The notes under the pieces are model-generated. The model was not told the DNA's origin, did no database searches, and saw only the letters and a list, made by a program, of their open reading frames with translations. A stretch of 47,564 bases of DNA from positions 1 through 47,564 of the forward strand of contig CACDLR010000004.1 of the NCBI GenBank assembly GCA_902553695.1, read 5' to 3'. This document shows, piece after piece, positions 4,417 to 5,753 of this stretch (positions are counted from its first letter, which is position 1; each line of letters starts with the position of its first letter). This stretch comes from an uncultured Pelagibacteraceae bacterium. Its GTDB lineage: Bacteria; Pseudomonadota; Alphaproteobacteria; Pelagibacterales; Pelagibacteraceae. Made by a program: the position numbers and the translations under genes.

Positions 4417-4444
4417 TTGAATGTATTTAATAGTGTGATACTGT
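4417..4444 (+). promoter_or_regulatory. Putative sigma70 promoter for the riboswitch-bhmT transcript
   Basis: TTGAAT (4417-4422), 16-nt spacer, TACTGT (4439-4444) preceded by TGA (extended -10 like), just upstream of the SAM-II aptamer. Confidence 0.45.
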
Positions 4445-4451
4445 AATAACA

Positions 4452-4500
4452 AGCGCTGATTTAAATCTAATTGCAGGCGCTATATAAATCCTGCTAAAGC
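4452..4500 (+). ncRNA. SAM-II-like riboswitch aptamer upstream of bhmT
   Basis: P1 AGCGC (4452-4456)/GCGCT (4477-4481); loop GATTTAA; H-type pseudoknot GCAG (4473-4476)/CTGC (4491-4494); conserved 3' GCTAAAG. Followed by an intrinsic terminator. Confidence 0.82.
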
Positions 4501-4509
4501 GATGCTAAC

Positions 4510-4539
4510 AACCACCGCATTAGTAGGTGGTTTTTTTTT
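4510..4539 (+). terminator. Intrinsic terminator between the two riboswitch aptamers
   Basis: AACCACC (4510-4516), loop GCATTAGTA, GGTGGTT (4526-4532), U-tract 4531-4539. Confidence 0.85.
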
Positions 4540-4559
4540 GCCATAGATAAAAGAAAACC

Positions 4560-4604
4560 GGGTGATTTGAACCATATTGTGCACCCTGCATAAAGCTAAA
4601 GCAC
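4560..4604 (+). ncRNA. SAM-V-like riboswitch aptamer (second in tandem)
   Basis: P1 GGGTG (4560-4564)/CACCC (4582-4586); GATTTGAACC loop; pseudoknot GTGC (4579-4582)/GCAC (4601-4604); ATAAAGCTAAAG core; located before bhmT. Confidence 0.78.
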
Positions 4605-4659
4605 TAAAAAGGAGAAGGGGTTTCATACTTTATTTGCCCTCATTTAATTTTATGAACTT

Positions 4660-4682
4660 CTTCTCCTAATTAAAAGGAGAAG
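4660..4682 (+). promoter_or_regulatory. SD-sequestering hairpin in the bhmT leader
   Basis: CTTCTCCT (4660-4667), 7-nt loop AATTAAA, AGGAGAAG (4675-4682). The 3' arm is the SD of bhmT (ATG 4686). The same octamer AGGAGAAG occurs at 4610-4617. Confidence 0.75.
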
Positions 4683-4685
4683 AAA

Positions 4686-5753
4686 ATGACTAAAGATAAA
4701 AAAAGAGGTTTAATCGAAAGATTAAACCAAGGCCCGGTAATTTGTGCAGAAGGATTTCTTTTTGAAATAGAAAAAAGAGGATACATGTCTTCTGGTGAAT
4801 TTGTACCTATGGTTTCATTAGATAATCCTGATGCCTTACTAAATCTGCACAGAGATTTTCAGCATGCTGGATCAGATGTTGTTCAAGCTTTTACTTATAA
4901 CGGTCATAGAGAAAAAATGCGTGTTATAGGTAAAGAAGAGTTATTAGAACCTCTCAATAGAGCAGCATTAAAAATTGCAAAAAAAGTTGCAGTTAGTCCA
5001 ATGGGAGATGAACAAAACTTGATGGCTGGGAATATTTCAAATTCAAACATTTGGAATCAGGATGATAAAAAATCCCAATTAGAGGTAGAAAAAATGTTTC
5101 GTGAAATGGTTGGTTGGGCAGTAGATGAGCAAGCAGATATTTTAATTGGTGAAACTTTTTATTACGCAGAAGAAGCCTATACAGCTTTAAAAGTAATGAA
5201 AGAAACTGGACTTCCATCTGTTATTACTATCGCCCCATACAGTAAGAATATCATGAGAGATGGAGTTTCCATTCTTGATACCTGTAAGGAGTTGGAACAA
5301 AGAGGAGGGGATGTAGTAGGAATGAATTGTCATAGAGGACCTAACACTATGCTTCCTTATCTTAAAGAAATTAGAAAAGAGTTAAAGTGTCATATAGCTG
5401 GATTACCTATCAATTATAGAACAACTAATGAGCATCCTACTTTTTTTAATTTACCAGATAACAATGGATGTAGTTTCCACTCTCCTCATGAAACTACATT
5501 TCCAACAGCTTTAGATCCAATGCAATGTAACAGATATGAAATAGGAAAATTTGCAAGAGAAGCTTATAATTTAGGAATAAATTACTTAGGTGTTTGTTGT
5601 GGAGCAAACCCTATGCTGATTAGAGAAACTGCTGAAGCAGTTGGTTTAAAAGTCCCTGCTAGTAAATATAGAGAAAATATGGAAAATCATTATATGTTTG
5701 GAAAGAATAAACGAATTCCAAAACATATAAAAGATTATAGAAATAAAGCTTAG
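4686..5753 (+). CDS. bhmT: Betaine--homocysteine S-methyltransferase
   Basis: GPVICAEGFLFEIEKRGYMSSGEFVP, VVGMNCHRGP, LGVCCGANPMLIRE (Zn-binding CC) match the homocysteine methyltransferase/BHMT family; SAM riboswitches upstream. Confidence 0.9.
   Translation: MTKDKKRGLIERLNQGPVICAEGFLFEIEKRGYMSSGEFVPMVSLDNPDALLNLHRDFQHAGSDVVQAFTYNGHREKMRVIGKEELLEPLNRAALKIAKKVAVSPMGDEQNLMAGNISNSNIWNQDDKKSQLEVEKMFREMVGWAVDEQADILIGETFYYAEEAYTALKVMKETGLPSVITIAPYSKNIMRDGVSILDTCKELEQRGGDVVGMNCHRGPNTMLPYLKEIRKELKCHIAGLPINYRTTNEHPTFFNLPDNNGCSFHSPHETTFPTALDPMQCNRYEIGKFAREAYNLGINYLGVCCGANPMLIRETAEAVGLKVPASKYRENMENHYMFGKNKRIPKHIKDYRNKA

Follow-up and report, generated by a model that had tools for sequence, protein, structure and literature searches.

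Translational riboswitches that exchange an anti-Shine-Dalgarno strand (anti-SD) with an anti-anti-SD are known for TPP, cobalamin and adenine. Usually, it is a stem of the aptamer that is exchanged. Poiata 2009 reportedly describes SAM-V with direct occlusion of the Shine-Dalgarno sequence (SD) at metY.

The SAM-V structure (PMC6061858) gives the positions of the P2a helix and of the SD that are used here. In metY, the tail of the aptamer is the SD of the gene, and the ATG follows a few nucleotides on. A bhmT SAM-V also binds SAM (PMC6061858; a bhmT sequence other than that of our locus). Upstream of bhmT, SAM-V follows SAM-II in a tandem (PMC2704228, PMC9481103, PMC11508383). According to the review PMC9481103, the SAM-V of these tandems controls the access to the ribosome-binding site (RBS).

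The bhmT locus presented here resembles the metY system in its RF01826 aptamer, in an SD-like tail with P2a, in the gene class and in the expected OFF logic. In contrast to metY, bhmT has its own SD 65 nt further, which would be reached through an anti-SD. With the published tandems it shares the gene, the order of the elements and the terminator, and HTCC1062 belongs to the present set. The platform beyond the first SD is not described in the accessible text of those papers (PMC2704228, PMC9481103, PMC11508383). The SAM-II tandems with a second, RBS-controlling stage are also similar, with a terminator stage followed by a translational one. However, their second aptamer differs, and the accessible text of PMC9481103 describes no duplicated SD. 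In the literature searched, whose scope did not extend to Poiata 2009, we found no second SD or anti-SD described for SAM-V.

The likeness to the TPP, cobalamin and adenine switches lies in two helices that exclude each other and of which one hides the SD, and in the participation of an aptamer strand. The difference is that bhmT SAM-V would exchange an SD-like tail that adjoins the ligand core and is kept in place by 2-3 nt of the pseudoknot. From sequence comparison and modelling, positions 4610-4684 are probably a strand-exchange expression platform of the bhmT SAM-V riboswitch. An ancestral SD of the direct-occlusion type would be kept in it as an anti-anti-SD. A SAM-V aptamer with this predicted platform is a variant of a known riboswitch class.

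The bhmT leader in the window

The window is the whole stretch of DNA analysed (47,564 nt). It is a SAR11 (Pelagibacter-type) contig from an incomplete genome of 787 kb, and the features described below are on its forward strand. A SAM-II (SAM_alpha) aptamer is matched at 4443-4514 with 19.8 bits (RF00521). This is far below the Rfam gathering score of 36, despite an intact terminator. The intrinsic terminator of the SAM-II stage (AACCACC..GGTGGTTTTTTTTT) occupies 4510-4539. It consists of a terminator scan match at 4514-4531 and a T run, and the scan found one terminator against 0.3 expected. A SAM-II-like strand is present at the matching place in most related leaders, and the upstream terminator in nearly all of them. 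The SAM-V aptamer follows at 4551-4617 with 77.8 bits for RF01826 (gathering score 41). Other Rfam matches in the leader are far below their gathering scores.

In the numbering of the metY crystal structure (PMC6061858), the 5' strand of P2a is C14-C15, which corresponds by homology to C4572-C4573. Reading the sequence after this structure, these two bases are complementary to G4611-G4612. Likewise, A4610-G4611-G4612 maps on A52-G53-G54.

The octamer AGGAGAAG lies at 4610-4617 (SD1) and at 4675-4682 (SD2), and its complement CTTCTCCT at 4660-4667, exactly where the preliminary description had placed them. That description put SD1 5 nt past the pseudoknot strand. More precisely, SD1 is the 3' tail of the RF01826 model itself, 3 nt after the last P2 pair (A4606), with A4610-G4612 on the P2a side. 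SD2 is the working SD of bhmT, with 6 nt between its GGAG and the ATG at 4686, and SD2 is present in relatives too. The gene (4686-5753) encodes a betaine-homocysteine S-methyltransferase of 355 aa. Its product is 74% identical to that of HTCC1062 bhmT, which stands behind a SAM-II/SAM-V tandem. The matches of BhmT to the homocysteine S-methyltransferase family are below the equivalog cut-offs.

Direct occlusion, the mechanism of metY, had been judged unworkable at this distance, and the positions agree. The bhmT SD is 65 nt beyond SD1, and the ATG is 68 nt past the end of SD1. As also claimed earlier, SD1 has no start codon of its own at normal spacing: the window has no ATG, GTG or TTG at a distance of 4-13 nt from SD1.

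In the window, AGGAGAAG or its complement occurs five times (0.94 expected), three of them in the bhmT leader. The arrangement AGGAGAAG-N30-60-CTTCTCCT occurs once, with none expected. We also counted triads formed by an 8-mer, its reverse complement and the same 8-mer again (within 100 nt, at least three G/C). The triad of the bhmT leader is the sole one in the window, and the mean in 40 simulated sequences is 0. These counts and simulations rule out a triad by chance.

Predicted helices A and B

In the predicted folds, two mutually exclusive helices use the anti-SD TTCTTCTCCT (4658-4667), and one of them hides SD2. Helix A, the putative ON state, pairs 4610-4622 with 4655-4667 and 4624-4627 with 4651-4654 (5' arm 4610-4628, 3' arm 4651-4667). 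It has 17 bp and an energy of -20.0 kcal/mol (z -4.25). Helix B, the putative OFF state, occupies 4658-4684 and pairs 4658-4667 with 4675-4684, masking SD2. It has 10 bp and -13.6 kcal/mol (z -5.1). The preliminary description had 4660-4667 pairing over 8 bp with either copy; the pairing with both stands, at these greater lengths.

A fold begun at 4613, without A52-G53-G54, replaces helix A in the minimum-energy structure by helix B and a helper hairpin. This hairpin (4618-4639) pairs 4618-4621 with 4636-4639 (GGGU:GCCC) in the fold of 4613-4688. It is the weakest part of the predicted model. With its CCCTC loop, it is confined to the window and the HTCC1062 group, and it was rejected as a general element.

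Conservation and covariation among relatives

SAM-V is present in 255 of 397 family genomes. BhmT orthologues were drawn from 399 genus genomes and from GTDB species genomes, and 99 BhmT genes were sorted by their leaders. The direct layout is found in 45, a displaced SD in 38 and a long displaced form in 3, and 13 have no SAM-V. The displaced layout represents 38 of the 86 SAM-V bhmT leaders sorted. Nearly all leaders of the displaced and the direct type carry the upstream terminator.

We analysed 34 distinct displaced leaders from SAR11, the window among them. Many are only 55-70% identical to the window leader. In each of them, SD1 is at the end of the aptamer, the anti-SD follows after about 50 nt, and SD2 precedes bhmT, so that the three elements stand between the SAM-II/terminator/SAM-V tandem and the gene. 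Helices A and B are both formable in all 34. The GGAG of SD1 is retained in 33, most of them with no start codon behind it. An inner pairing of the remainder of SD1 is found in 22 of the 34.

A start codon behind SD1 matters for the best surviving alternative, translational coupling. SD1 would serve a short upstream reading frame (uORF) overlapping the bhmT start. SD1 would be occluded by SAM-V in the classical manner, and ribosomes translating the uORF would melt helix B and open SD2. An ATG or TTG 4-13 nt from SD1 is indeed present in 12 of the 34 leaders. All 12 frames run on beyond the anti-SD, most of them with a stop near the bhmT start (in HTCC1062, the uORF has 23 codons). The longer class (L103, L115 and L127) also has an ATG behind SD1 and a uORF. 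However, the other 22 leaders, including the window, have no start after SD1. Start codons at this distance do not exceed their frequency in shuffled leaders (0.35 vs 0.45; for ATG alone, 0.29 vs 0.15 ± 0.06), and neither do open frames (1.44 vs 1.54 per leader). Moreover, helix A buries SD1 with a conserved pairing and would block the uORF. We rejected the uORF as a general explanation, and coupling is an unlikely account of this leader.

The long leaders themselves measure about 130-145 nt, and here too a strand further downstream pairs with SD1 and the uORF start. L115 and L127 have similar uORF peptides (MSxxKYQVNNCSxSIKxxLxLLTRVVYRSF...). A search of the long-class peptides for NCBIfam families gave no match.

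For the strand-exchange platform, the preliminary description had proposed to align bhmT leaders and look for covariation of the three elements. They are conserved in the 34 leaders, and both helices co-vary, helix B more weakly than helix A. Pairs were counted in a fixed register set from GGAG/CTCC, because a MAFFT alignment of all leaders misplaces the anti-SD between subgroups. Counted this way, each of the first nine helix A pairs is retained in 31-34 of the 34 leaders. Stem positions 11-16 use G-C, A-U, U-A and C-G. Between the sister species L082 and L084, a pair of helix A is exchanged, C-G for U-A. In helix B, the pair outside the GGAG is U-A in 8 leaders and A-U in 23. Position 7 tends to change jointly in SD1, the anti-SD and SD2.

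We compared cognate arms with arms swapped between leaders. For the arms of helix A beyond the octamer, the comparison of 14 leaders less than 85% alike, in which relatedness partly remains, gives -5.46 kcal/mol for cognate and -2.77 for swapped arms (0 of 5000 permutations). For helix B, the values are -10.12 and -9.54 kcal/mol (50 of 5000 permutations; relatedness partly remains here too).

Predicted bistability and proposed mechanism

We calculated the cost of opening SD2 with nearest-neighbour energies, leaving out the pseudoknot and Mg2+. On this basis, the median of the 34 leaders is 0.6 kcal/mol when SD1 is whole and 5.2 kcal/mol when A52-G53-G54 is blocked. The cost is under 3 kcal/mol in 32 of 34 leaders with SD1 free, and over 3 kcal/mol in 32 of 34 with AGG blocked. 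Helix B is then formed in 31. As a control, blocking loop nucleotides has a slight effect in most leaders. The restriction of the upstream copy by SAM-V, as first proposed, can be refined accordingly in the model: blocking A4610-G4611-G4612 alone tips the predicted balance.

The ON and OFF ensembles differ by a median of 1.3 kcal/mol out of about 22. This gap would be within reach of the binding energy of a ligand. Some leaders lean to OFF even with free SD1 (L059, -5.1; L049, -4.2; L058, -2.5; L057, -2.1 kcal/mol), and helix B is weak or unformed in L042, L053 and L055. In these leaders, the co-transcriptional order could matter. The idea that coevolution tunes the energy gap was dropped, since chimeras between leaders have a gap about equal to the native one.

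We propose the following mechanism. Without SAM, the tail of SAM-V would be free. SD1 and its 3' flank would pair with the anti-SD as helix A, presumably the first helix to form during transcription, and SD2 would be open to the ribosome. With SAM, the folded pseudoknot would hold A52-G53-G54 in and next to P2a; in the cell, SAM binding is expected to take these bases. The outer pairs of helix A would then be blocked, the anti-SD would shift to SD2 as helix B, and translation of bhmT would stop. P2a has only 2 bp, so the grip of the aptamer on SD1 may be weak. In HTCC1062, bhmT mRNA and protein rise under sulfur limitation (PMC5069961), which is consistent with an OFF switch. The comparative and thermodynamic evidence supports the anti-SD exchange suggested earlier for this leader. 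For SD1, described as decoy or anti-anti-SD, it favours the second role and speaks against a decoy for ribosomes.

Helix B is stable by itself, and it might be a fixed translational brake or a thermosensor without SAM control. The pairing of SD1 with the anti-SD would then follow from its resemblance to SD2 only. We regard this as improbable, more so than coupling. The arms of helix A also co-vary where they have nothing in common with SD2, and helix B offers no explanation for this. Besides, helix A starts at the P2a bases of the aptamer, and SD2 is predicted to be open when SD1 is whole.

Evolution of the two layouts

A quick BhmT tree needs at least 13 changes between direct and displaced layouts, gains and losses taken together. 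Its well supported branches force at least 6 changes for either label. In the close relative L064 (BhmT 94% identical), the AGGAGAAG of the SAM-V tail is the bhmT SD. This fits the earlier suggestion that SD1 is an ancestral SD. L064 and its close relative L062 differ by the exact segment between two AGGAGAAG copies, so the relay would become a direct switch if the stretch between the repeats were deleted. The same exact deletion could mean that recombination left a functionless duplicate SD as an evolutionary by-product, but this is very improbable, since both helices are kept with compensatory changes across the 34 divergent leaders.

The window leader (4611-4679 compared) is 94% identical to that of L049, with BhmT at 77%. 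With L034 the relation is inverse: BhmT is 92% identical and the leader 63%. From this mismatch, leaders and genes seem to recombine separately, and the sequences suggest recombination of leaders between SAR11 lineages.

We favour, with less assurance than for the platform itself, a more general reading in which the platform is toehold-gated. The pseudoknot aptamer would capture 2-3 nt of the ancestral SD. By this capture it would govern a helix some 15 bp long, which in turn would control an SD at a distance of 65 nt. Direct and strand-exchange forms would interconvert by recombination between SD copies. The bhmT of HTCC1062, the SAM-II/SAM-V system studied in most detail, would be a strand-exchange form that was probed without its platform.

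HTCC1062 and other leaders

The model strain HTCC1062 was identified as L147 (genome G026) by the riboswitch coordinates in PMC2704228. It has the platform, with SD1, the anti-SD CCTTTTTTCTCC, SD2 AAGAGGAA and the ATG. The published tandem construct has 177 bases, with U82-U90 as linker poly-U (PMC11508383). Counted on the HTCC1062 genome by this numbering only, the construct ends at an ATG 11 nt after SD1 (near L147 record position 1127300, minus strand). This ATG opens the 23-codon frame, which is out of the bhmT frame and starts about 54 nt before the bhmT ATG. By the U82-U90 count, the construct would lack the anti-SD, SD2 and the bhmT start. A second SAM-V match with 57.6 bits is found in HTCC1062 at L147 353-417 (minus strand). 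Relative to the first match, it lies about 1.2 kb downstream, either at the end of bhmT or beyond it.

If the proposed platform is true, direct covering of the RBS by SAM-V fails for a large part of the bhmT leaders, HTCC1062 included, and the published construct lacked the relevant part. The leaders would also be a natural series in which one-step direct and relay switches replace each other, making the evolution of expression platforms directly testable. Except in the Southern Ocean, bhmT has been reported for 10 to 30% of marine bacteria (PMC12478193). Together with the share of the displaced layout, this frequency suggests that the switch may rank among the relatively abundant regulatory RNAs of the ocean.

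The exact platform pattern was found in 6 of the 397 family genomes, with bhmT downstream in 5 and a relic without it in 1. In metY, the ATG is 4-8 nt past the SAM-V GGAG in 27 leaders (those of the best hits that allowed a gene call). A platform common to other SAM-V genes was rejected: the pattern search gave bhmT only, apart from the relic, and 27 of 27 metY leaders are direct.

A SAM-II/terminator/SAM-V/SD1/anti-SD leader without SD2 or bhmT is observed in L025/L145 (G237). In this case, the leader seems to have outlasted its gene. Finally, L131, L133, L136, L138, L140, L141 and L129 (SAR86-type and other bacteria) have bhmT without SAM-V and share a conserved upstream element of about 65 nt. 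This element scores 28.3 bits for SAM_alpha (threshold 36). It is probably a SAM-II variant missed by Rfam.
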